Source: Rugalucina vietnamica (taxonomy: Eukaryota > Mollusca > Bivalvia > Lucinida > Lucinidae). Taken from it: a stretch of DNA of 64,000 nucleotides. Location: positions 3,100,151 to 3,164,150 of the forward strand of contig OZ024878.1 of assembly GCA_964017185.1 (NCBI GenBank), given 5' to 3'. The notes under the pieces were generated by a model. The model ran no database searches. It had not been told where the DNA came from and saw nothing but the letters and a program-made list of their open reading frames with translations. Made by a program: the position numbers and the translations under genes. Positions 7,640 through 60,398 of this stretch are shown here, one piece after another. Position 1 is the stretch's first letter. Each line of letters opens with the position of its first letter.

Positions 7640-9958
7640 ATGGCTTGTAACAACGCAGACTATCATTCAGAATTCCATCAACGTTTGAATGACCTCCGAA
7701 AGATTCAAGTTTTCACAGATGTCAAAGTCAAAACAGCAGATCAAGGATCGTTTGATTGTCACAAGATTGTGCTTTCTGCGATCTCGCCATATTTTGAGAC
7801 AATGCTTCAAGCAAATATGCTAGTAAGTATAGTGTAGAATAAAGAAACTGTTTGATTACACAATAATTTAAATACATCGTCATCATCTTCCTCTTCATCA
7901 TCATCATCCAATGACAGATTTTAATGTAACTAAATTCAAAGACAGAAAAGAACAGAAACGAATGTTTCCTTACGTTTCAAGTCTTTGTTTGAATTGATGT
8001 TTAATATCTCGGTCAACAGGGACGATGCCTCCAAATAATGGGACTTTTTCCCAAAACTAGGATGTCATGACATCAAAAAAATGCTTCAGATATAACCACC
8101 CCACTAAACCAATAAGGCTTATATGTATGGGTGGTTTGACTTGAACCACTTTTCCTGGGCATGCTCGGACGTGAGCGAATGACCAGAAGCCAGATGATTA
8201 GTCAGTAGCTTAGAAGCTATGCCAGGCGATACAAGCAGCCCATCTATTTCTTTAAGCCCCAATGGACGGGGGCCCATCGTTTCAAGTATTTTAAGTTGCT
8301 TTGATAGCACCTACATATCACAATTACTTGTCTTGACCACCAATATATTAACTAGTGGTGCACAATTAGCTGTTAGTTTTGTATTTCAGGAAGCTGCGAC
8401 TGGAGAGATCCAACTGACGTTTGACGAAGAAACGGTCGCGACAGTCTTGGAGTACATATATACGGGGAAGCAGATTCTCTCAAGGACGAATGTATTGCAC
8501 GTGTATCAGGCTGCACACATGCTGCAGATATCTCCCTTAATCACAATGTGTGAAAAGTACTTGAAGACAGAAATGAGCAAGGAGAATTGCCTCGGGATTT
8601 GGAAGATATCCAAGCTGTTAGGAAGGTCTGATATGGCGGGAGTTGCGCAGACGATAGTACTGAAGAGTTTTGCTGAAATTTGCTCAGTTGAAGCGTTTGA
8701 ACAGGCGGACGTCAACATTGAAGATCTGAAGATTTTATTGGTCGACCCTTTTCTGAATTGCAGTCCGACAGTAAAGTGCAATGCTGCAGTAATATGGCTG
8801 GCGTTACAAGAGGACGTTGATCAAGACTTGATCGTCGAGTTGTTTCTGTACCTGTTGAAATCGTGTGGAGTAAGTGCAGACACGTTTCATGAAAGTTTGG
8901 ACGAAAGCAACACTGCCCTTTGGAGCCAGTTGCCGGCATCCGAAGCCACGAGGCTTAGGATTACATTTCAAGAGGTATTGCAGCGAATGACGTCAGCAAT
9001 GCCATCGGCACATTCGGAGTCACTCCAGGCTCGACATGATGAAGGGTTTGTTGTGATTGGGGGCAACGAAATGAGGTCGAATACTTTCATGATGACGCTT
9101 AACTTGCGTGACCATAAATGGTACGCGCTGGAGCAACTTCCGGAAGACCCCGGATTTTACTTTGCCGTCTGTTGCAGTGGAACTAGTTTGTTCCTGACAG
9201 GTGGTTCAAAACGAAAGGAACAGTTTCTGCAATATGATATCAATAAAAATGCTTGGAACAGGCTACCCAACCTACCAATCGGAAGAGAGGGGCATGGAAT
9301 GGTTGGCTTTGACAGCGCCATCTACATGTTTGGAGGAAAGACAAGTCCGCCATCTTGCAAGTCCTACGTTGAAATGTTCGTCCCAGACGACAGATCGTGG
9401 AGGAAGGTTGGCGAGATGGCAAAACCCGTTTATTCTCCAAGCTACTGTGTGCTTGAAAACAGGATCTACATTTTTGGCGGAAGCATGATTGGTGAGACGG
9501 CGCCATCTGATTGGGCGCAGTATTACGACACGCGCGACAACCTGAGCGGGAACCTTGATTTCAAGCTCCCATTCAGATCGAAAGCGTCAACCTTGCTAGC
9601 TGTTGCGGGACCCAGTGCCATATACTTAGTATACAAAGGAGATATCTACATGCTAATTCCCAAGAAACGTGCTGAGAAAGTACAGTGTCGCACAGCTGGT
9701 CCACAGAAGGGTGCTGGAGCGGTGCGTTATGGCGATAAAATTCTTCTTATCGGAGGAGAGGATGACAGCTTCCGTATTCTGGACACAATTGTTCTATTTG
9801 ACCCCGTGACAAGCGATGCCACGGCATTGCCTGCGAAAACACCGTGGTCCCTATCGGCGTTTCATTTTGCAAAGATAAAGATACCAACTGCTCTTGTACA
9901 CGGATTGAAGGAGGTTAGCCCTACAGATGGCGCTTTACTCGCAATCGGATATCACTAG
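7640..9958 (+). CDS. Kelch-like (BTB-BACK-Kelch) protein, complete coding region
   Basis: KLHL-type proteins usually act as substrate adaptors for cullin-3 ubiquitin ligases: BTB binds CUL3 and the Kelch propeller binds the target. Exon 7640-7822 encodes the first 61 residues of BTB (VFTDVKVKTADQGSFDCHKIVLS, then SPYFETML) and ends at a GTAAGT donor. Exon 8390-9958 follows a TTTGTATTTCAG acceptor, in phase 0, and continues BTB with EAATGEIQLTFDEETVATVLEYIYTG. The product is 583 residues: BTB about 15-125, BACK about 130-235, then Kelch blades with repeated GG pairs (VVIGG, LFLTGG, YMFGG, IYIFGG, LLIGG). The open frame upstream to 8219 is intron, not protein. A 5' untranslated exon starts at 7622 after an acceptor. 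It converges with the P450 gene. The KLHL number cannot be assigned. Confidence 0.94.
7985..8290 (-). repeat. SINE-like dispersed repeat family E
   Basis: Reverse copy of a repeat also at 21005 and 31370, recognised by CTGAGCCTGCCCAGGAAAAG, CTTGTTGGATGTCAT and a tail ending in CAATTCAAACAAA. It fills most of the Kelch gene intron. Confidence 0.6.
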
Positions 9959-19281: not shown

Positions 19282-22200
19282 ATGATGCAGCGGTTGTGTT
19301 TGTGCGCCCTGGTGGTTCCGGCGTGTTTTGGGTTTGTACTGGACACGGTGTTTGGACCGGAACCTCAGACGGTGTCGCAACTGGACGTGAATAAATATCT
19401 AGGACGATGGTACCAGGTAAGCTCTACTATCACATTACAAATTTGCCCATACAATATACAGAGATTATTTTGTTTTACAGTTGAAAAAAATGAAAATTTA
19501 ATTTGAAACAACAAAAAAATATTAAAAACATATATTGTGGATGCACGTGAGAACCGCCTCGCCAACGCGGTTCTAAGAGTACGCACAATCTATGTTAAAC
19601 AGCTTTGGGCCAAACTGAATTAAAAAAAAAATGTACACCCCTGTAAACCCAAAATTAATGAGCTATATAAAAAGTTGTGTTTAAGGGGGTATATTTTCAA
19701 TGGACATGTTATCCTGATGTATGACTTTTATTACGTTGACAAAGTCGTGCCTTTCCGCCGCGCACGGCTGCTGACCGACTGGCAATCAGAACTACGGTCT
19801 GCACATCTTTCAGAAACTGTATTTTTCAAAATCTCACTTTTCTGAAACACCACAAGAAAAATATAACCATGTCATCTTTTTGCAACCCAAAAGGCATAAA
19901 AAGTGCCGCAAAAATTTTGAAAATCGGTTCATTAATAAATTAATTATGCCCAAAAATTATTTTGCCTTTTGTATGTGCAAGGGAGGTAATCCAAACACCC
20001 AAGCAAATCTGTGGAATGATTTTTGAGAGTTTGGCACAATACGGTATCCATACAATACAATTTTGATTTTGGTTTGGTGCATTTTAAGTGAAAAATAGCC
20101 AATTTAGATTTTTTACGGGAAAATAGTTACTTCCCTTGCTGACATTTTACAATCATTATGGCAAAAGCCCTATTCAAAATTATTTTCTGGCATAAAATGT
20201 TTATGTTAACATATTTTCAAAATTTTTGTCGCATTTTTAGGACTTTTGGAATGCAAAATGGTGACGTGGTAATATTTTCCTTGAGGTCTTTCAGAAAAGT
20301 GAGATTTTGAAAAATGCAGTTTCTGGAAGAAGTAGGCCTGAGCCCTCCCTGGAAGAGGATAAGGCAAATCCATAATGTACATGTACGTATGAATTGTTTG
20401 CTTGACTGGTGTCAGGTCTTAGCATATTGGGATGTGATTCTAATTTGGAATAGAAGAGGCGACATCCCGACGTGACTAAGTGACTGTTAATTAGGATGCT
20501 AAACAAGGAAAAATGCACTGTTTTAATGTGCCAGTTTTACGGTTGTCAGATAACTTTCAAGTGGTCATTTTTCATCTTTGAGTAGCACTATGACGGTCAC
20601 GATAATCAATGGCGCCTGTCCCGAATTTCTTAGAACCTGTCATGATACGAAAATAAAGATCTGCCACATACGTAATCAAACAATCTGCATATGCGAAAAC
20701 AAAAGCGCAGATCAGCTGTGCAGTCACTGCACAGCTGATCAGCGCCTTTGTTTTCGCTACTTGGATGCTTACAATTCCTCTTCTACTTATATCCAAACTT
20801 TCAAGCATCTATCTTGGTACTGTGACTGTACATGTCAGTCGGTTCGTCGGAACCCGAAATGGTTGGTCTTCTTGTGCATAGACAATGTTCTCTTTCTTCC
20901 AGATGTATGCCAGTCAGTCAGTTGTAACACTTTGGGAGTCTGGGGCTATCTGTGTCACCGCTGATTGTAAGTTCTTTTTCAACTTTAAACGTTTCTTTAA
21001 AAGTGTCTCGGGCCCCGCCCATTTGGGGCCTAAAGAAATGTATGGACTGCTTGTGCCTCTAATCAAAGCTACTGACTTGCTATCTGACTAATGGTCAACC
21101 GCTCATGTCTGAGCCTGCTCAGGAATAGTTAATTCCATTCAAACCATTCATTCATATACCATAGTCGCTTACTTTGAAGCACTTTTTTGCATGTCATGAC
21201 ATCCTAATTTCGAGTAGAGGTCCCATGAAGTGGAGGGAACGTCCCGACATGACCTACAGCTGTTGACTGGGATGTAAAGCAGCACCAATTCAAACAAACA
21301 TACATACAAAGAAACAATAAAAGTGCAATGCCTTACTGACACAAGGGATGAGAGATAAGCATTGGTGAATTTTTGTTTGCTTCCTTTCTCCCAAACATTC
21401 GTCTGGTAATGCTAAAATTGTTGTCAGTTCACAGATGAACCATTGTAAGTACACAGTTCATACTGACATGTAGCTCCGACATGCCTGGTTTGCAACATGT
21501 TTTATCTTATTAATGTAAGGTGAATAAATGCTTTTCAACACCAACAAACCTGGCAGAGCTATTTATAATCCCATTTTAATATTGCATTTGCTTTAATTAA
21601 TATCAAATCTTTTTTGTAGATGAATTGGCAGCCAATGGTCAAATAACTGTCCTAAATTCTGAACGGATAAAGGCGGGCAACGGTACTCTACAGGTTATTC
21701 ATGGATACGCCATACCTTCAAAAGAGCCGGGAAAACTCAGTGTCCACTTGGAAACCGTGCCCGTCAATGCCCCATGTAAGTTAAGTTTGGTATTGCGTGT
21801 TTTAGTTTTTGCTCAGTAGATCTATATACTTAATAATATGGTGTACTGGAAGGGTCAAAATGACCGAAGTGGTTAACCGATCGGAATCAGAATCAGAATA
21901 GTTTACTGGTGAAACGTCAAACTGACAATACTACACCAGGGGGGATGGGGCTTGACCGGAGGGGATTAGTCCCGAGCTCTCACAAGAGAAGTAAATTTAG
22001 ACACACAATCATCTGACAATTCAGCAGAGGAGATCAGAGAATCAGGGAGTTCATTCCAATCTCTAATGGTCTGGGGAAAGAAACTGTGTAAATAGGCATT
22101 TGTACTTGCTGAAGGTATCTGAAATGCCAAGGAGTGTTGATTCCTACAACGCCTATTTTTGGGGATAAGGTCATCCGTGGGTATTTTTGCTCTCCCTTTT

Positions 22201-25200
22201 AGACCTTTGTAAAGTAATATAATTCTATTATCCTTCCTTCTTTTCTGCAGGGATTCCCATTTTAGTTTTTTAAGGATGCCCGTCATACTACCTTTTTCAT
22301 ATGTATAGTTCCTAGTTACAAACCTAGCCGCACGCTTTTGCACCTTCTCCAAATCATCTATCAAACCTTCATAATGAGGGTCCCAAACTGAGCTACCATA
22401 TTCAAGAATAGGTCTCACCAGACCTTTATAGGCAGCTTCTCTCACATCTTGGGGGCAAGAAAACAGATTTCGTGTCTCAAAAAACCAAGGGTCCTATTGG
22501 CTTTGGTACACACATTGCTGATGTGAGTATTCCATTTTAAATCCTTAGTTATTGTTACACCAAGATATTTGATACTCTCAACATTTTCCAACACAGTACC
22601 CTCAAGCTTGTAAGAAGCCTGAATTTTACTAGTACGTTTATTTGTCAGCTGCATCATGTTGCACTTGACAGGTTGAAATCTCATACCCCATTTCCTGGCC
22701 CAACTACCTAATCGATCAATATCCTTCTGAAGTTTCACTGTATCCTCCACATTCTTAATTTCACGATAACAAACACAATCATCAGCAAAGAGTCTGATTT
22801 CCGATTCAATATCTGAGGTGATATCATTTATATGCAACGAAAACAACAAGGGGCCAAGAACGGTGCCCTGTGGGACACCAGATACAACCGGAGCCCAGTC
22901 TGATTTAACGCCATTAACCACAACTCTTTGTTGTCTATAGCAAAGGAAGGCATCAATCCATTTAATTGTCTTCCCACCAATTCCATAACTGAACAATTTG
23001 CTTTTAAGGAGTTCATGCGGAGGAGTGTCAAAAGCTTTTTCGAAATCCAAGATAAATGTGTCAACCTGACCTTGATTGTCTAAGATTTTTGCCCAGTCAT
23101 CAATCACTGTAGCTAACTGGGTTTCACAACTGTGGGATTTCCTGAATGCATGTTGCCTGTCTGACAAAAGTTTATGATGATCCAAATGGGACATGATATT
23201 AGAACACACTATATGTTCCAGAAGTTTGCAGGGTACGCAGGTCAAGGAAACTGGACGATAGTTGCAAGCAAGAGACCTGTCAGCCTTTTTGAACAGGGGA
23301 CAAATGTTTGCTAAAGACCATTCTTTGGGGATTTCACCCGAGTCTATTGACTGTTGAAAAAGATGTGCAAAAACAGGACCTAGCTCAGATGCCAATTCCT
23401 TAAGGACTCTGGGATGAAGCTCATCAGGACCTAAAGCTTTCGACGGGTTCAAACCTTTCAGAAGTTTTGTGACACCTTCTTTGGATACCACTATGTCTTC
23501 CATAAACGGGGCTTTTCTATTCAGAAGAGGGACCTGGCTATGTTCAGTTTTGGTGAACACATCCGTAAACTGACCATTGAATTCACCAGCCTTTTCAAAA
23601 TCTGATTCAGCAAGACCACTTCCATTTCGCTTTTTCAAAGGGGGGATACCTTGAACATCTTTTTTCTGACTATTTATGTACCGATAAAAATCTCTTGGAT
23701 TAGCCTTAACATCACCAACCAAGTTATTTACATACAACTCATGCTGTTTTCTGATATCTGCTTTGATTTCTCTTCTCAAAGTTTCAAATTTCGTTCTAAA
23801 TTTTGCATTCCCAGTTTTCTTCGCTTTAGCGTGAGTTACATTTTTTCTACGAATCTTTCTTCTTATTTCAGGAGTTAACCATGGGACTGAGGAAACTGAG
23901 CGACTAGTCTTTGATGGGATATGTTTATCCACTGATTCCTGGATAAAAGATGTGATCAAATTAAAGTTTTCTTGAACCGACCGTGTGCCAGAGTAACCGT
24001 TGAAATATTTCTCCTTTGCAAATTTAAGGGCATCACCTTTCATAGATTCATAATCACCTTTCTGATATTTATACACCTTTCTCTTAGGTTTCTTGATGGG
24101 GGGAATAACTATTTTCAAAGTTCCAGAGACAATGTCATGATCACTAAGCCTGTCCGGGGAATGAATATCAACAAATTGTCCGGGAAGTGAAGTGATAATC
24201 AAATCCAATGTGTTTTGTCCTCTTGTGGGGAAGTGCACTACCTGTTCCAATTCGTGGTCACTTATAAGTTCTACCAACTTTGCACCTTCAGACACGCTCA
24301 ATGAAAAACCTAGTTTGTTGAGTCTATCTGGCCAAACAATATCTCTGAAGTTGAAATCACCCATGACATGGACCGAGGGGGGTTTGTTTCCTTTATGTAA
24401 AGTTTTCACCTTTTCAAGTTGGTCTTTGAATAACTCAAGTTCCTCTATCTTACCATCTGGAGGTCGATACCAACTTGCCACAAAATGGGAAGTTTTGTTC
24501 GCAAATACCTTTACCCAAACTGATTCGGAGCCGTTTTCCAATTCAGTGATCGGCATATGAGGAATATTTCAAATTAGACATGCACCCGCAAATATAGGGG
24601 TGCACCCGCATATTTAGAGGTTCACCCCTATTTTAAGATAGAGGTTAACCCCTAAAATGCAGGTACATGCCTATTATAGGGGTGCATGCCTATTTTAGGG
24701 GTTAACCTCTACTTTACGGGTGCACCTCTAAAAATAAGGGTGCACCCCTTAAATAGGCATGCACCGCTATTTAGGGGTTAACCTCCATTTAGGGATGCAC
24801 CCGCATATTTGCAGGTTAAAGCCTAAATATACGGGTTCACCCGCAATTTTAAAATAGGGGTTAACCTCTATTTTTGCAGGTTCACCCCTATTTAGGGGTT
24901 CACCTCTATTTAGGCATGGACCCCTAAAAATAGGGGTTAACCCCTATTTTTAAATTGCGGGTTAACCCCTATATTTAGACATGCACCTGCAAATATGCGG
25001 GTGCACCCCTAAAATAGAGGTTAACCCCTAAATAACGGTGCATGCCTATTTTAGGCTTGCACCCGTATTTTTAGGGGTTAACCTCTAAAATGGAGGTGAA
25101 CCGCTAAAATAGGCATGCACCCCTAAAATAGGGGTGCACCTGCATTTTTAGAGGTTAACCTCTAAAATAGGCATGCACCTCTAAAATAGGCATGCACCGC

Positions 25201-26138
25201 TAAATTGCAGGTTAACCCCTAAAATGCAGGTTAACCCGTATCTGAAAATAGGGGTGAACCTCTAAATATGCGGGTGCACCCCTATATTTGCGGGTGCATG
25301 CCTATTTCAAAATAGGCATGGACCGATCGGTTAACCGATCGGTTAACCACTTCGGTCATTTTGACCCTTCCAGTACACCATATAATAATAAATAAAATCG
25401 TTTTCCGGGAAGTCCTGCAATAAGGGTGCCTCTTCACGCGGACTGATTGGGTGTTCCGGAAGATTTTACATTCCCGTCGTCGTGCTTGTGTGATGCACGG
25501 AATAACAGCTTTCATGTCACGGTGACATTAGCAAAATTATATTCGTCAGACTATAAGCAGATTTATTTTATTTTTCATTTACGTCTACTTCATGTAAAGC
25601 CAGAGTTGATCGGGATTCGCTAATTGAGCCGCCTCATGGGAAAACCAACAATCTGCATATGCGAAACCAAAGGCGCAGATCAGCGCTGATCAGCGCCTTT
25701 GTTTTCGCTACTGGGATAGTACAATTCCTCTTCTACTTAACTCCAAACTTTCAAGCTTCTAGCCATCTTCTGTGACGGTACAGACCAGTTTGTGTCAGAC
25801 CTGTTCGGACACCACATTGTTGGTTTTCCCACGAGGCGGCTCAATTTTCATTTTGTTGATGTGTCCACATTAACAAGACAGCATTTCCTTTTCCAGACTG
25901 GGTGTTGAAACTGGGACCAGAGACTTGGGGCCCCGACAAGAAGTACCAGTACGCCGTTGTCAGTGACAATGTCCGGGGCACACTGTTCGTTCTAGCCCGG
26001 GACCCTGTCGTCTTCCAGAGAGATTACGAGACAGAAATACTCCAGTTTCTTAAGGATCAGGGATTTACAACGTTTTATAACAAACCATTAAACACATATC
26101 ACGGACCAGACTGTGTGTATAATACAGACCATCATTAA
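19282..26138 (+). CDS. Apolipoprotein D-like secreted lipocalin, complete, four exons
   Basis: Lipocalins carry small hydrophobic ligands in a beta-barrel; the apolipoprotein D/Lazarillo group is extracellular. Exons 19282-19416, 20903-20966, 21620-21775 and 25897-26138 join with phases 0, 1, 1 and encode 198 residues. Residues 1-17 form a signal peptide (LCLCALVVPACFGF). The first lipocalin motif is YLGRWYQ (40-45). Then come CVTADYELAANGQITVLNSE, typical of ApoD, and NAPYWVLKLGP with a YAVVSDN strand; a late Cys near YHGPDCVY may pair with an earlier Cys. Intron 1 carries a 523-bp TIR element and hairpin MITEs; intron 3 (4.1 kb) holds a LINE and a palindrome array. The gene converges with JMJD7, with 535 bp between stop codons. 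Ligand is unknown. Confidence 0.93.
19432..19715 (+). mobile_element. Hairpin MITE family B, complete copy in lipocalin intron 1
   Basis: Ends ATTACAAATTTGCCCATACAA and AATGGACATGTTATCCTGATG; hairpin at 19550-19595. Starts about 15 bp after the exon 1 donor. Confidence 0.75.
19807..20329. mobile_element. 523-bp TIR element in lipocalin intron 1
   Basis: About 45-bp inverted ends: CTTTCAGAAACTG, then TTTTTCAAAATCTCAC, matched by the complement at 20285-20329. No clear target duplication; non-coding. Confidence 0.75.
20665..20872 (+). mobile_element. Hairpin MITE family A, copy near lipocalin exon 2
   Basis: Near-perfect hairpin at 20694-20757; 5' end diverged. It ends about 30 bp before the exon 2 acceptor (20901-20902). 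Confidence 0.78.
21005..21305 (+). repeat. SINE-like dispersed repeat family E, copy
   Basis: Contains GAGCCTGCTCAGGAATAG, GACATGACCTACAGCTGTTG and the CAATTCAAACAAAC tail. In lipocalin intron 2. Confidence 0.6.
21888..24570 (-). mobile_element. 5'-truncated CR1/L2-like LINE with frameshift
   Basis: The minus-strand frame 24556-22442 encodes the C-terminal part of an endonuclease/exonuclease/phosphatase domain (VMGDFNFRDIVW, then LSDHDIV) followed by a reverse transcriptase (ILDFEKAFDTPPH, SGVPQGTVLGPLLF, LFADDCV). The frame then breaks near 22442; the rest (KEAAYKGL-like through TIRDWNELP) continues in another frame down to 21966. The 3' end at 21888 finishes in (ATTCTG) repeats on the element strand, a simple-repeat tail of the kind seen in CR1/L2 elements. 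A 5' truncation plus the frameshift make it non-autonomous. It lies between the left 49-bp TIR and the palindrome array. Confidence 0.88.
24572..25334. repeat. Combinatorial array of palindromic words
   Basis: About 760 bp in which an 8-10 bp GC-flanked core alternates with an AT-rich spacer every 19-22 bp. Cores come from a small set: GGTTAACC, GGTGCACC, GGCATGCACC, GGTTCACC. Spacers come as complementary pairs (CTAAAATAG/CTATTTTAG, GCAAATATGC/GCATATTTGC). Units are not copies of one monomer; words recur in changing order and both senses. The right TIR repeats the same style (GGTTAACCGATC twice). Confidence 0.9.
25624..25847 (+). mobile_element. Hairpin MITE family A, complete copy near lipocalin exon 4
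   Basis: Ends TTGAGCCGCCTCATGGGAAAACC and TTTTCCCACGAGGCGGCTCAA are inverted; the hairpin is shortened. It stops 48 bp before the exon 4 acceptor. Confidence 0.88.
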
Positions 26139-49605: not shown

Positions 49606-52600
49606 GGAATCAAGACAACTCACCGACAAGACAACTCACCGACATGGTTTTTGAGACAATTTACCGACAGATTTTGAGACAATTCACCGATACTTCTGAA
49701 GACAATTCACCGACACTTTTGTTCAAAGTTAATGACTTGTAACTGTTGATCTTGATTGGCAATAAAGAGCAATTAAGACTAATAACTAGCATGAGACAGA
49801 TTTGATTAATATGAGGTGACTTTAATAAAACCTTAGTGTTGCTTAATTATATCTTGGATTAATATTTTTCGGACTATATAAAATATCTCAAGACAACTCA
49901 CCGACAGATTTTGAAGACAATTCACGGACAGATTTTGATATTAAAAATATACTGATCAAAATAAGTTTATTCCTACTATATTATTGTCGGTTATTTTATA
50001 TGTGGCTGATATTTCTTAATTTGTGTTATGTAGCATATGAGAATCACATTAAAGAAAAGGTTTATGGCAAAAGTTTACTTAAAAATTGGCTTGACGTCGT
50101 TTAACGTCATTTTACCCATATTTATACCATTCAAGTGCCCACGTTTTTAGTGCAATCACATTTAACCAAACTTGCTTTTAAACATTTGTTTGGTGTCAGT
50201 AAAGCAGGAATCCGCTCAAACTTTTGCAATTTGTTTCATTAGACACTCGTGAGAGACTACGTTATTCTGACGTTTATTTGCCTTATTTTTCAATGTGCTC
50301 CTACACGTTCAAAACTTCTCAATTTAGAAACTTTCTTTCTGAATGACTCCTCTCTGTATCAAGAGCTTCTGATTATGACAAAAATTTTGTCTGTACAATT
50401 TTGGATAGTCCACTGAATAAGAAAATCATGCATAAGTTTGTGTGACTGACGTTCGTTTACGCTCAAATGAATCAAATCTCAATCACTGCATTTTAAAAGA
50501 GACATAATCGAAATTGTTAAAGAGGTGTTAAAATCACAATCTGACGTTCTCAGTAAAGAACACAGACGATTTTACGTTTAACGTCAGCTTTGACGTTGAG
50601 TTAACTTTTCTTGGATATTTTTTTCAGGTCAAAAAACCACTTATATAAGTTATGCTTTAATTAGTAATTATGACAATATTAACTTGAATAGGTTATTAGT
50701 ATCATTACCCCACTTGTCTTTGAAGTACCTGCGTAATACTTTTTAGACTATCATGCGTAATAAGAAATTCTTTTGTAGTAGCTACATTAAAGTTACATCA
50801 TCCTGGGAAAATTGTCTAGACATGTGCCAAAATTCTGGTAAGGTGGGAACAGATGTTTTAAAATCAGGGATTTTGCCATTCTGATGCCCAAAAATTGCAT
50901 AAAAAACTGAAATTTTCAAAATCTTAATGGTATATACTAACTTTCAGCCATGTGAGTATAAACCTCTCATCTTGCTGCATCTCCCATGAGCATTTTAATT
51001 ATGTGAAACCCTGCATATTTCAATTAAATTAAGAAAAACTCTACAGATTTTGACTGATGCAGGGAAAATGACAAATAACTTGTTTCAGTTATTATTTTTA
51101 TAACCTGTTTAGGTTTTGTCCCTGACTGTTAATGATTCAAATGAACAAAGAGAATACAAAACGATTTTATCGCTGACCTAAACCAAAATGATTTCCAGCC
51201 TCGGTTCTAAACCGAAATGATGACATTTTCAGTCACTACCATTTGACGTCATTTGTAACGCGTACACACATTTATTTGCACCAAATTTCAAGCGGAAATA
51301 AACCTTTGACATGTTCTCATGTGTGTTTAATATAGAGATGGAATTTTAAAGCGTAAATGTCGATCTAATGCTTGCTGAAAAGTCTTGCTTTTTCAGCAGC
51401 TTCATGTGTGAATTTTCATAGTGACCCCTACTTGGAACCAGGGTCGATAGGTCTCATCTCGGCCTATCGTTTACCGTTATCTTTGTGTAACAATGATCCA
51501 GAGGGATGAAATTAACTTTCTGAGAGGGAGAATCTGCTCCAGGTGTGTAATACCTCACACTATTTTAAAAACATTATAGTAGGAATAAACTTACATGTAT
51601 TTTGATCAGTATACATATGAAGGTATTTGGCCAAAACTTACCGACACGATTTTGAAGACAATTCACTGACAGATTTTGATATTAAAATACATATGAAGGT
51701 GTTTGGCAAAACTCACCGACACGATTTTGAAGACAATTCACTGACAGATTTTGATATTAAAAAGATATGAAGGCATCTTGTCTCGATTTTTGAGACAATT
51801 CGCCGACAGATTTTGATATTAAAAATACATATGAACGTATTTGGCCAAAACTCACCGACACGATTTTGAAGACAATTCACCGACAGAGTTTGATATTAAA
51901 ATACATATGAAGTTGTTTGGCAAAACTCACCGACACGATTTTGAAGACAATTCACCGACAGATTTTGATATTAAAAAGATATGAAGGCATCTTGTCTCGA
52001 TTTTTGAGACAATTCACTGACAGATTTTGATATTAAAATACTGCAATTTTATATCAAAATCTGTCAGTGAATTGTCTAAAAAACCGTGTTGGTAAGTTTA
52101 ATTTAATGACACTTTAAATTTTGGTAAGGTGCCTTCTTTTTATGAGAATCTGTCGGTGAATTGTCTCAGAAATCGTGTCTGCGAGTTTTCATATCTAAGT
52201 GGTTACTGTTGAAGAAACAAAGGAAAGACGGAAACTGCATTATTTTGATTGATCATTGCTTACTTTTTTTCAGACTCGGATGCGACAAGTGAAGAGATAT
52301 TGTGGCTGATTTGTATGGAATTCGAGTAAATGACATGGCATTCATGTTCTAATTTGTTTTACGGTGGGACTTTGGTTCTGATATTACGAAGTTTTAAATG
52401 ACCATTGCTTACTTTTTGCAGACTCGGAAGCGGTCAGTAAAGGGATATTGTGGCTTATGGAATAAGCATAACAAGGAGATATGAAATTCATAATTTTATT
52501 GAGGAATGCACGTAAATGGAACAAAATAGCACACATATAACGTACGATAGTATATACACACAAACGAGACATGTTACACACATGATAATTTTATGAAGAA

Positions 52601-53733
52601 AATGAATTAAACAAATTAACACAAAACAAAATAGCACACACATCAATTAAAACATATACTATATACACATTTAATAGTCGTTGTAAAAAACAAACAAACA
52701 TGAATTGTTTATATTCGTTGCGACATGACAAAAATTGTTGACTTGGAAGTCATTACCAAATCAAAACTACTACATGCACAATAAAACCATCGCATTCTCG
52801 ATGAAAAAAGAGTATGTTAACATCAAGTATGTGCTCAAAATTAAAGGTATGAAATACATGAGTGCTCTATGTTGAAATGTGCACAAATTATTAAAAGTGA
52901 ATCAGGCAAACAAAAAATTAGAGATATGTCAGTGAATTTTCTATTATGGCTAAACTCGTACAATCTTAAATCCGTTGATGACTAATTTTTGAAATGCCTT
53001 TAAATTCCTATATGAAGTCAAAGTCAAAATTTATTTAAAGTCGGGTAGTTTAAGTAGTTTGAAATTTTTGTTTCAAAATTCTTATAAATCTTTTAAATCT
53101 TAAAACTGTCAGTGAATTGTCTGATATATATGCAAGTCTTTTCAAATTTTAACTTTGTCTGTGAATGTTTATGAATTCTTGTTATTTTTTTTTAAATCTT
53201 GAAGCTGTCGGTGAATTGTCTTTGAAACCTTGAATCTGTCAGTAAATCGTATTAAAAGTGCCTTTCAATACTTAAAAATAAGGTGAATTGTTTAAAACTA
53301 TTCTCTAATATCTTAAAACTGTCGGTGAATTGTCTTAAATAATCTTTCAAAATTCAAATCTGGTGATTAAATATTATAAAATAGTTTTTAAAAAGTTAAA
53401 TTTGCCGGTGGACTGTCTTAAAATTTTCTATCAAATCTTAATTTTATCTGTCGGTGAATCGTCTTAAAATTGCTTTCAACTTTTTATCTGCCGACAAATT
53501 GCCTTAAAACTTAAATCTGTCGGTGAATTGTCTCAATATTTTGTCGGTGAAAATGTGATAAAACTGTCTTAGCAATAATGGGGAATGTATGATCGCCAAT
53601 CAAGGTCATCAGTTACAAGTCATTAACTTTAAACAAAAGTGTCGGTGAATTGTCTTCAGAAGTGTCGGTGAATTGTCTCAGAATCTGTCGGTGAATTGTC
53701 TCAAAAACCGTGTCGGTGAGTTGTCTTGTTCCC
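49606..53733. mobile_element. 4.1-kb iteron-rich TIR element with 8-bp target duplication
   Basis: Ends GGAATCAAGACAACTCACC and the complement GGGAACAAGACAACTCACC; GGTTCATC flanks both sides exactly (49598-49605, 53734-53741). The motif AATTCACCGACA recurs dozens of times, in that sense through 49.6-52.0 kb and as TGTCGGTGAATT in 52.0-53.7 kb, so the whole element is a loose palindrome of iterons. No long open frame. Size and 8-bp duplication recall hAT-type elements, but the ends are not a known signature to me. Confidence 0.85.
52245..52460 (+). repeat. Tandem exon-like segment inside the iteron element
   Basis: Two ~65-bp copies (from about 52250 and 52398) each read TTGCTTACTTTTT(T)nCAG|ACTCGGA then GTGGCT, i.e. 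a pyrimidine tract and acceptor followed by a short open frame. May be a captured or ancestral exon border. Confidence 0.4.
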
Positions 53734-53808: not shown

Positions 53809-54506
53809 TATCGCACCTGCTTATAGCAGGGTGCGATATAGGAGTTCAAATTTCCGTCCGTCCGTACGTTCGTTCGTTCGTCCGTGCGTTCGTTCGTCCG
53901 TTCGTCCGTCAACATTTACGTCGAAGTTTAGTTTTCTCGACATCAGAGATAGCTGCGAGTCTGAAACCTTGCATAGTAATTGTCCCTGACATACCCTTCA
54001 AGCACGCACCTTAACCCGTTGCCCTTGACCTATATTTCACGGTCCACTGACTTTGAAAATTTTTACGTCGAAGTTTGGTTTTCTCGCCATCAGAGATAGC
54101 TGCGAGTCTGAAACCTTGCATAGTAATTGTCCTTGACATACCCTTCAAGCACGCACCTTGACCCGGTGCCCTTGACCTATATTTCTCGGTCCACTGACTT
54201 TGAAAATTTTTACGTCGAAGTTTGGTTTTCTCGCCATCAGAGATAGCTGCAAGTCTGAAACCTTGCATAGTAATTGTCCTTGACATACCCTTCAAGCACG
54301 CACCTTAACCCGGTGCCCTTGACCTATATTTCATGGTCCACTGACTTTGAAAATTTTTACGTCGAAGTTTGGTTTTCTCGACATCAGAGATGGCTGCGAG
54401 TCTGAAACCTTGCATAGTAATTGTCCTTGACATGCCCTTCAAGCACGCACCTTGACCCGGTGCCCTTGAACTATATTTCATGGTCTATTGACTTTGCCCG
54501 ATGCAG
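53809..54506. repeat. Inverted-end repeat with four ~147-bp tandem units
   Basis: ATCGCACCTGC at the left and GCAGGTGCGAT at the right. After a (CGTT/CGTC)n stretch come four units starting ACGTCGAAGTTT (about 53918, 54064, 54210, 54358). Directly follows the iteron element. Confidence 0.8.
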
Positions 54507-55835: not shown

Positions 55836-58800
55836 ATGGCGGACAGGAGTGGGAATGGGATGCCTGTGGATGATGATTTTGACTTTGACCTTGACCTAAC
55901 AGAAACCGAGATGTTATGGGAAAAGAAGATCCTGGCCATCACAGACCAAGCTTTGGCATCTGGGGATTCTGACATGGAAAAACAGTCTGCTAATAAGAAG
56001 GATGTTTCTATGAATGATGTAGAAGATCTAACTGATGACGAACCTGATCTGATTCTAGTGAAAGATGAAAGTGAAACTAGCAGAGTCCAAAGTGAAAGTA
56101 GAAATGAAAGTGAAAGTAGCAGAATTAAGAATGTAGGGCAAAGAATAGATTCTGATGCCATGGAAGAACTGGATGATAGTGGCAATCCAAAATCACCGTC
56201 AATATTAGATTGTACAGATGGAGATGGTGGTAGTGTTGCCGCTCGAGAAAACAGCATTAATGCTCTACGCGACAGTCTAAATGCCTGGAGAGATGAAATA
56301 GATACTGTTAGGGACTCTATCCTGAACAATGGAAAACAAGAAAAGAACAAAAATACAGATAAAATCAATGATGATGTAAAAAATTATGACTTGCCAGACT
56401 TGGATGATGAAAATGCCGTGAAGCCAAATGGGACAAGAAATATCATGGATTCATTGGATGAGGAGAAGGCAGTTATTGTCAGTTTCTATGATACCATTGA
56501 TCTGACAGACCAAAGTCAGATAGAAATGTCATGTCCAGGTTAGTGCAGTTATCTTTTTATGACATCACTGAATTAATTTTACAAACTATGCCAGGGTTTT
56601 CCCAGGCACACACATGTGCTTTTGGCCTCCACTGACCCCCAATACTGTCCAGGGAGGGGACTGTGATGTACCCCAAAATCCTCAAGTATTTCTATTTCCT
56701 GAAGTAAATGATTATGTCCCCAAAATTCTCAACAATATTGTCAAAATGCGCCTTAGAAGCTTCCATCAGTGGGACATTTGTTCTCTTAAATTAAAACTGC
56801 AAGGGAAAACCCTGCTAACCTTACAAAATTATTACCAAAGTCACATGACATAAAAAGAAACAGCCAGACATTATATGAGTCGCAACGTGAGAAAACATGA
56901 GAAAACTGCTCCTAGGTTTTCCAATCAGGGCTGACAAACCGGCCTGTGCAGCTACAGAAGATGGCTAGAGGCTGGAAATTTTGGATTTAGAAAGTAGAGG
57001 AATAGGGAAAACAAAGGCGCCGATCAACTTTGCAGTTAGTGTGAAGCTGATCTGCGCCTTGGTTTTCGCATAGGCAAGAATCCGGTTTTCTCATGACGCG
57101 GGTAATATGGTGTTAACAAGAGCCTTGTAGGTCTTGAATATTCAAAATGAAAATAATAAATAAGCCACAGCACAAGAAAGCAAACAATTTGCTTGTAGTG
57201 AAAACAAAGACGCAGATCAGCTGCGCAGCAGGTTCTTGGGTACAGGGATAGTACAATTCCTCTTCTTCATATATTATCTGAAATTTCAAGCCTCTAACCT
57301 GCTTTTGTGTCTGTACAGCCTGATTTGTGTTGGAGCTGGTTGATAACCAAAACTGTTGGTTTTCTCATGGGAAGGCTCAAATCATTACGAAAAACATGCC
57401 CATACAATAAACAGAGATTTTTAAAGTTGTAAAAATTGAAAATTTTCAGTAGAAAATATTTGCTATTTTTCCAATTTTTGCTTAAACATACATTGTGGGT
57501 GCACGTTAGAACTGCCTCGCCCTGCATACCCCAGTTTTGCTATATAAAAGTGGGGTTTGAGGGGGTATACATTACATGGACATGTTTTCATGATATATGT
57601 TTTTAGCTCACCTGAGCCGAAGGCTCATAAGGTGAGCTTATAGGATGGCCATGCTCCGGCATCAGTCCGTCGTCCGTCGTCGTCCACAATTTCAAAGATC
57701 TTCTTCTCTGAAACCGCTTGGCCGATCAAGTTGAAATTTTATGTGGAGCCTCCTTGGGTAGTGGCATTGTAATTTTGTTCGTGATATCTTGGTCACATGA
57801 CCAAGATGGCCACCATGCCCATATATGGTAAAAACCACTCAAAAATCTTCTTCTCCAGAACCGGTGGGCCGATTTCCACGAAACAGTATGTAGCATCGGG
57901 GACTTCAGCCCATCATAGTTTGATAAAATGATGACCATAGGATGACCTTGACCTATTTTACGGCAAGATCAATTTTGGAAACATAGGCTTTTACTTGGGA
58001 AAAAGTGAAAACTATGGATTTTTTGAAAAATATTGCAGCCTGAGGCCTGAAAAGTTGTAGATGCAAACAACTATTGGAGTAGATGAAGGCATGTGATTAA
58101 TTTAGGTCAAGGTCATCTCTTGACCTTGGCCAGTCTGTCGTCCATACACACTTTTCAAAGATCTTCTTCTCTGAAACTGCTTGGCCAATCAAAGTGAAAT
58201 TTTATGTGGAGCATCCATGGGTAGGGGAGACGAAAATTTGATCGCGAAATCTAGGTCACATGACCAAGATGGCCGCCACGCCCACATATGGTAAAAACCA
58301 CTCAAAAATCTTCTTCTCCAGGACCGGTGGGCCGATTTTCATGAAACTTGGTATGTAGCATTTGGGACTCCATCCCATCATAGTTTGATAAAATGATGAC
58401 CCTAGGATGACCTTGACCTATTTTACGGCAAGGTCAATTTTGGAAACATAGGCTTTTACATGGGAAAAAGTGAAAACTATGGATTTTTTGAAAACTATTG
58501 CAGCCTGAGGCCTGAAAAGTGGTAGATGCAAACAACTATTGAAGAAGATGAAGGTATGTTATTAATCTAGGTCAAGGTCATCTCTTGACCTTGGCCAGTC
58601 TGTCGTCCATACACACTTTTCAAAGATCTTCTTCTCTGAAACTGCTTGGCCAATCAAAGTGAAATTTTATGTGGAGCACCCATGGGTAGGGGTAACGAAA
58701 GTTTGATCGCGAAATCCAGGTCACATGACCAAGATGGCTGCTTTGCCCAACTATGGAAATAAACACTCAAAATCTTCTCCAGAACCGCCAGGCAGATTTT

Positions 58801-60398
58801 CGTGAAACTTGGTATGTAGCATTTGGGACTCCAGCCCATTATAGTTTGTTGAAATGATGACCCTAGGATGACCTTGACCTATTTTACGGCAAGGTCAATT
58901 TTGGAAACATAGGCTTTTTCATGGGAAAAGGAGAAAACAATGGATATTTTGGAAACTGTTGCAGTCTGAGACCTGAAAGTTGCTCGATGCAGACAACCAA
59001 TGGAGTCAATGAAGGTAATTAATTAATGAAGGCCGAGGTCATTTCTTGACCTTGACCCAAAGTCATTTAAATATCAAAACTAAAATTATGGTTTTCTCAG
59101 AAATCACTGGGTTTGGAAACTATTGCAGCCTGAGACTTGAAACTTTGCAGATGCAGACAACTTATAAATTCAATAAAGGTGTGTGAGTATTCAAGGTCAA
59201 GGTCATTTCATGATGACTTAATACTCCAGGATCAGGCTTCAGGTGAGCGTTCTCAGGACCAATGGTCCTCTGGTTTACTGTTGTCCTTACAGGGGAGGAA
59301 CTGAACACCTCTAGCTCTGGTACAGTAGGTGAAGATGAGATGAACACATTCGTGATTAGTTCTGACAGTGAGAAACAGAGAAGTGGGACCCAAGCCAGTA
59401 ACAAACACTCACAAGGTAAGAGTATGTCCCAACATGACTAAAAAATATTAACTTGGACATTTAACCAGAAAGCAAACCTCTCACGCAGTAGGAAAAGATG
59501 AGATATCATGATCTTGTTGTCGTCACATGATCACATGACCTTGCTGTCATCACATGACCTTGCTGCCATCACATGACCTTGCTGTCATCACATGATCTTG
59601 CTGTCATCACATGATCTTGCTGTCATCACATGACCTTCCTGTCATCACATGACCTTGCTGCCATCACATGACCTTGCTGCCATCACATGACCTTGCTGTC
59701 ATCACATGATCATGTCTAACATTAAGAAGTTCTGTGGCACAAATTAATGACAAACACTCACAAGGTAAAAAGTCTGTCTTGGCATCACTAGTTGTTGACT
59801 GGAACCTGTAACCACAAAATAAAAACAAAAAATCACTGGTAAGAGTAATACAGTGTGAAGAGACACATAGTGCTGCTTATGCTTTAGGTTTAGCAAAAAT
59901 GCAACAGAAAATCACTGGTAAGATACAGTGTGAAGAGACACATAATGCTGCTTATGCTTTAGGTTTAGCAAAAATGCAGTAGACTTTAAATTGCATGTAA
60001 CAAAATGTTTTGGAGGACTGACGGTGTACAAGATACATTGCATCACAAAATTTTTCACTGGGCTACCATTACACAAGTGAAGAACTATTGATATAAACCC
60101 AAACTTTTTTTTTGCAGAAGAAAGCAAGCGGCCATCATCCTCAGCAAGTGTTGGAGGAGCTGACACATACATTAGTCTAGACCTGCCCCCATGTCAGTCA
60201 TGTCTGAAGGCTAAGGAGAAGAGACGCTGTACACACAGACACCACCCCTACCCCCCGTCCCAGGGTCAAGGACCAAGCTCATCTGGAGGGCAAGGTAAGC
60301 CTCAATATGGCCACAGACTCATCACATTGCTTATAAGTTGACTGTCATGTCTGAAGGCTAGAAGAAGAGACACAGTACACACAGACACCCCCCCACCG

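Follow-up and report, generated by a model that had tools for sequence, protein, structure and literature searches.

A recently active foldback MITE, probably of the IS3EU type, with arms built of palindromic words in the bivalve Rugalucina vietnamica

The window analyzed here, a 64-kb stretch of the Rugalucina vietnamica genome, contains at 21837-25382 a transposable element that has been split by a second one. Its terminal inverted repeats (TIRs) align over 52 bp at 98% identity (21833-21884 and 25335-25386); a preliminary description of this DNA had given perfect TIRs of 49 bp, and the perfect inverted ends were recovered, although the perfect part is the inner 48 bp. As placed by the TIR alignment, the left TIR (21837-21884, forward strand) starts TATGGTGTACTGG and the right TIR (25335-25382, reverse strand) ends CACCATA. 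A 6-bp target-site duplication, TAATAA, abuts the element on the left (21831-21836), where the reading of the sequence is joined by 6-bp duplications at other copies, and on the right (25383-25388). Inside the element lies a 5'-truncated non-LTR retrotransposon on the reverse strand (about 21885-24565, the right boundary being uncertain by a few bases), whose open reading frame (22442-24556) carries Exo_endo_phos_2 (PF14529, E 9.2e-12) and RVT_1 (PF00078, E 8.2e-33) domains and is the only domain-carrying frame of at least 150 aa within the window copy. Alignment with two intact copies placed the join after element base 48, with around 9 bp of the element lost; intact copies measure about 874 bp. 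Because the retrotransposon split the element, the left TIR is 2.7 kb from the palindromic array, and the extent first proposed, 24572-25383, captured the array and the right TIR but not the left TIR beyond the retrotransposon.

Elsewhere in the window we found a single uninterrupted BTB-Kelch frame of 579 aa (8219-9958) and two tandem arrays (53915-54496, 147-bp unit, 4.0 copies; 57690-59054, 465-bp unit, 2.9 copies). Adjoining the element, a short repeat at 25624-25850 has inverted ends of about 30 bp as read by eye (ATTGAGCCGCC.. and ..GGCGGCTCAAT), and a similar sequence was seen, also by eye, in L083. A further element-like structure occupies 49626-53729, with 138-nt inverted arms that are 94% complementary, lie 3.8 kb apart and are made of a word of about 23 bp, GACAATTCACCGACAGATTTTGA; another array of this word is found within it at 51611-52038. 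With two array-armed inverted structures in one window, such an architecture would be recurrent in this genome.

The array of the split element contains 38 recognised core centres with a median spacing of 20 bp (range 17-25), the cores being 8-10 bp long and self-complementary or near-palindromic. Two of the words are strongly over-represented in the 64-kb window, GGTTAACC with 14 occurrences (0.88 expected) and GGTGCACC with 6 (0.53 expected), counts as high as these appearing in none of 100 shuffles, and the near-palindromic cores at intervals of around 19-20 bp that had first drawn attention to the locus are thus borne out. Thirteen of the 14 GGTTAACC copies lie inside the array or inside the right end that adjoins it, and the left end holds the other, at 21871. 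The TIRs also contain GGTTAACCGATC, an extra copy of which (25329-25340) overlaps the inner edge of the right TIR; with GGTTAACCGATC and GGTTAACC present in both ends, the TIRs are indeed written in the vocabulary of the array. Identity between array units averages 0.62 in direct and 0.61 in inverted orientation (666 pairs). The local dyads look like one half-motif of about 10 bp repeated in alternating orientation, and the words look interchangeable at short range because all units resemble one another. The hexamers TTAGGG and CCCTAA together number 11 in the array of the window and 12 in the reference copy L006; a telomere-like reading was considered and then dropped.

The words had been thought to shuffle freely along the array, but the array as a whole (24566-25325) is a single long imperfect palindrome with its centre near 24901. 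Arm alignment gives a left arm of units of about 19-20 bp (24566-24900, forward strand) and a right arm (24901-25325, reverse strand) that is around 95 bp longer as folded and includes 1.9 copies of a 77-bp period (25058-25204). When the left arm of the window copy is aligned with the reverse complement of the right, there are 292 matches, 36 mismatches and 99 gap positions, so that 292 of 328 aligned arm bases are matched. The mirrored score of 404 compares with 253.4 ± 18.7 (maximum 319) in 500 shuffles of the unit order of the right arm, about 8 standard deviations above them, with a slight bias in its favour from a fold point optimised on the real sequence only; four other copies have mirrored arms as well (z 7.9-8.0). 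Arms compared without reverse complementing score 273-293, far under the mirrored value, the 293 of the window copy being about 2 standard deviations over its shuffle mean. The mirrored score so exceeds the direct one that the arms must mirror each other unit by unit, and free shuffling is therefore contradicted within a single copy. As a transcript, the array has a minimum free energy of -500.8 kcal/mol against a mean of -225.0 ± 7.6 kcal/mol in 20 shuffles, in agreement with the strong self-pairing originally proposed, and so stable a predicted hairpin makes small-RNA production plausible. As is characteristic of foldback elements, most of the element consists of one long inverted repeat that is internally repetitive.

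Searching the 1.09-Gb genome (47 contigs) with an 811-bp query, we found at least 131 matching stretches on at least 15 contigs among the 40 of 373 candidates that were scored. In the same scored set, at least 24 places, the window's included, cover query bases 8-810 of 811 or more, the other 23 being 84-98% identical to the window array. The 29-bp end has 236 + 236 matches in the genome with up to three mismatches and none for the reversed pattern, and the 26-bp end has none in viral contigs. Both ends were recognisable in 25 of 30 excised loci; L001, L014, L015, L024 and L025 are incomplete at their ends and were left out of the order and duplication counts. Of the 25 two-ended loci, 18 are bordered by an exact 6-bp target duplication; L004, L013 and L026 match at five of six bases, and L007, L016, L027 and L030 do not have it. 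The flanks shared by L020, L021, L023 and L026 identify these as one insertion copied along with its surroundings, and since three of them (L020, L021 and L023) are among the exact cases, we count around 16 independent sites rather than 18. Most loci have the ends TATGG..CCATA. Inverted ends, target duplications and many copies confirm a TIR-bounded mobile element and, together with the fixed length of the duplication, the near-identity of the copies and the lack of coding capacity, describe a MITE. The many copies that have target duplications of their own make an assembly artefact very unlikely.

Judged by eye, the order of the word tokens is common to the 25 elements, with tokens missing where words have changed. 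All 24 of the two-ended copies compared with the reference L006, itself a 25th, are colinear with it, being 90.8-98.8% identical at aligned bases, and each aligns to L006 with a higher score than any of its own 20 unit-order shuffles. Other copies thus carry one fixed sequence, the observation that the preliminary description had itself named as contrary to its reading. A set of 15 copies chosen by length (855-880 bp, which leaves out the more diverged L027 and L029) lies 0.69-3.10% from its majority sequence, CpG sites changing more (0.38 per site) than sites elsewhere (0.17 per site). The structure is not perfectly fixed: 14 of the 25 copies compared (the 24 plus L082) have an indel of at least 8 bp, including deletions in L030 (356 bp), L082 (504 bp), L022 (36 bp) and L028 (33 and 32 bp), while L017 (1015 bp), L020, L021, L023 and L026 have gained pieces. 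The element is recently active, one fixed sequence having been copied nearly unchanged to many sites.

There is also a shorter family, of about 455 bp, in which the first 150 bp or so are shared with the foldback family and the right side differs. Both of its ends are present in L061, L062, L064, L065, L066 (397 bp), L067, L068 and L079, and L070 and L080 were recognised by the left part. The top of the end-match list, on contig C1 and outside known array matches, supplied ten places, eight of them members of this family and two of the foldback family (L063 and L069). Most copies of about 455 bp sit in the same flanking sequence, and they have therefore probably spread within a larger repeat. 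L077 and L078, in which paired TIRs stand at distances of 3.3 and 5.1 kb, are MITE copies holding other repeats, the insert of L078 being judged from the starts of its reading frames.

According to the account in PMC10045372, TA..TA termini are invariable in complete IS3EU families and 6-bp target duplications are usual, while GingerRoot elements have 6-bp duplications and ends that are mostly TA..TA. The element studied here has both features, in the TATGG..CCATA ends of most loci and in duplications such as TAATAA in the window, and it is therefore most likely a non-autonomous foldback MITE of the IS3EU/GingerRoot type, the termini making this membership likely. It differs from IS3EU and GingerRoot as described there in its foldback arms of palindromic words and in having no linked transposase that we could find (PMC10045372). 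Overall, we consider it quite probable that this foldback MITE, with its TA..TA ends and 6-bp duplications, is mobilised by a DDE transposase of IS3EU/GingerRoot type, which would act in trans on the element ends.

The group is further defined by an IS3/IS481-like DDE transposase in an autonomous relative that has the same ends. Such an autonomous partner, which the preliminary description had suggested looking for, did not emerge: there was no transposase gene with these ends among about 100 of 472 end matches listed, nor in the other places read. Three patterns in which an element end has a different continuation occur at 17, 1 and 1 places, and the five of those 17 that were read have no match to two integrase-core (rve) proteins of this genome. 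Such proteins do occur, and the two examined, P0002 from L075 (G000:C12:30975864) and a frame in L076 (G000:C15:46518204) that combines rve with an OTU cysteine protease domain, have rve and no reverse transcriptase domain in the part searched; they are candidate IS3EU/Ginger-like transposases. The long frames of L071-L074 start like reverse transcriptases, as read by eye from the letters and not by family search. P0002 retrieved at least 42 matches (56 scored of 3777 candidates), and the IS481 profile NF033577, from whose matches the six loci L071-L076 were taken, gave at least 68 (68 scored of 2990), none over its cut-off. In L084 and L085, which flank a P0002 match at C11:4337476, and in the flanks of L075 and L076, the 29-bp end was present only at 8-9 differences, and a long inverted repeat was not found in L084, L085 or the stored L075 and L076 flanks. 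About 145 bp beyond the element of L009 there is a weak integrase-like match (E 7e-5), which is also contained in L043, a stretch from the same genomic place.

Drosophilid FB elements have 9-bp target duplications, and with duplications of 6 bp the present element is not an FB element in the strict sense. The TU elements of sea urchins have inverted repeats with short direct subrepeats of 15 bp and target duplications of 8 bp; the likeness lies in the short tandem subrepeats, the difference in their length and direct orientation and in the duplications. As described in the respective sources, Drosophila FB4 (PMC2955051) and Tetris (PMC4079207) are likewise non-autonomous, with long, internally repeated or modular inverted repeats and variable copies, although the repeats of Tetris measure about 220 bp, compared with a unit of about 20 bp here that is itself near-palindromic. 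Galileo also has long, internally repetitive inverted repeats but belongs to the P superfamily and has a known transposase, with binding sites identified in its internal repeats (PMC3688188). In oyster, the IS3EU-assigned satellites CgiSat35 and CgiSat47 are a further case of IS3EU-linked tandem repeats in an animal genome, likened here by their description, with repeats of 690 and 129 bp in place of palindromic words of about 20 bp (PMC8268682). Foldback elements whose arms are internally repetitive are known, and the earlier statement that no described family is built in this way therefore claimed too much. Among the open-literature papers listed, titles and abstract openings describe no IS3EU element of foldback form that has an array like this one.

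For the words themselves, one possible, though doubtful, role is that of a modular transposase-binding region, in which the dyad word would bind a transposase dimer and multiplication of the word would have been favoured by recruitment of the enzyme. The regular placement of dyad sites about 20 bp apart and the presence of the GGTTAACC word in the TIRs are consistent with such predicted binding, and there is a precedent in Galileo, whose THAP domain is described as binding near the end, with more sites in the tandem repeats of the long TIRs (PMC3688188). Against it, cores are not more conserved than spacers (0.154 changes per site over 280 sites versus 0.190 over 474 sites; Mann-Whitney p=0.58), which in 15 copies, a sample of low power, weighs weakly against a binding role. 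The 7-bp halves flanking a core were matched no better than chance (3.91 of 7 bases, versus 4.17 for randomly paired cores; p=0.84, 23 cores), and copies shortened to 370 and 517 bp still have both ends, as far as their sequence tells. A more specific form, in which a half-site of about 10 bp in an IS3EU-type foldback element was multiplied in alternating orientation to some 37 dyads and so formed a predicted enlarged end-recognition region that recruits the transposase, appears unlikely.

We regard as improbable the proposal that hairpin-primed or template-switching copying keeps making new word orders. Extra array segments or misplaced end segments are present in L017, L020/L021/L023/L026 and L069, five deletion copies (L019, L023, L026, L029 and L030) have 11-15 nt of homology at their junctions, and a stem-loop template-switch model for MITEs by Izsvak et al. 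is described in PMC8268682. However, one word order is common to the copies, the rearranged ones are a minority in which L020, L021, L023 and L026 represent one insertion site by their flanks, and homology at the other deletions (L016, L017, L018, L022, L027, L028 and L082) is 0-5 nt. Copying of this kind can account for how the palindrome arose, though not for shuffling that still continues, and the idea that repeated copying still recombines words is at odds with 24 of 24 colinear copies. Chance capture of a satellite array between TIRs, suggested by the tandem periodicity of about 19-20 bp, is very improbable in view of the words common to TIR and array, the mirror order across the whole array and the lack of a long stand-alone array of the 20-bp unit among the matches listed (40 of 373 scored).

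Most likely, then, the words either offer the transposase or a host factor additional binding sites of low affinity or arose as a by-product while the foldback grew, and we lean slightly towards the by-product. The three tiers of divergence (units 0.62 identical, arms 87.5-90% identical at aligned bases, copies 0.69-3.10% from their majority) point to an old array with a young spread, in the order units, arms, copies. In such a history, a unit of about 20 bp, made of two half-motifs of about 10 bp head to head, would first have multiplied in tandem; the block would then have been duplicated in inverted orientation, and slippage may later have lengthened the right arm. The finished element would finally have been copied whole, the array being far older than the burst.

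The element is thus ordinary in kind, a foldback MITE probably of the IS3EU type, and attractive in form. It illustrates how a DNA 'language' that seems combinatorial can in fact be one old, fixed sequence that recent transposition has amplified. Unit, arm and copy, each with its own divergence, provide a natural series for studying the growth of foldback transposons and, if the words do bind transposase, the element would be a strong case of the multiplication of binding sites as a selfish strategy.
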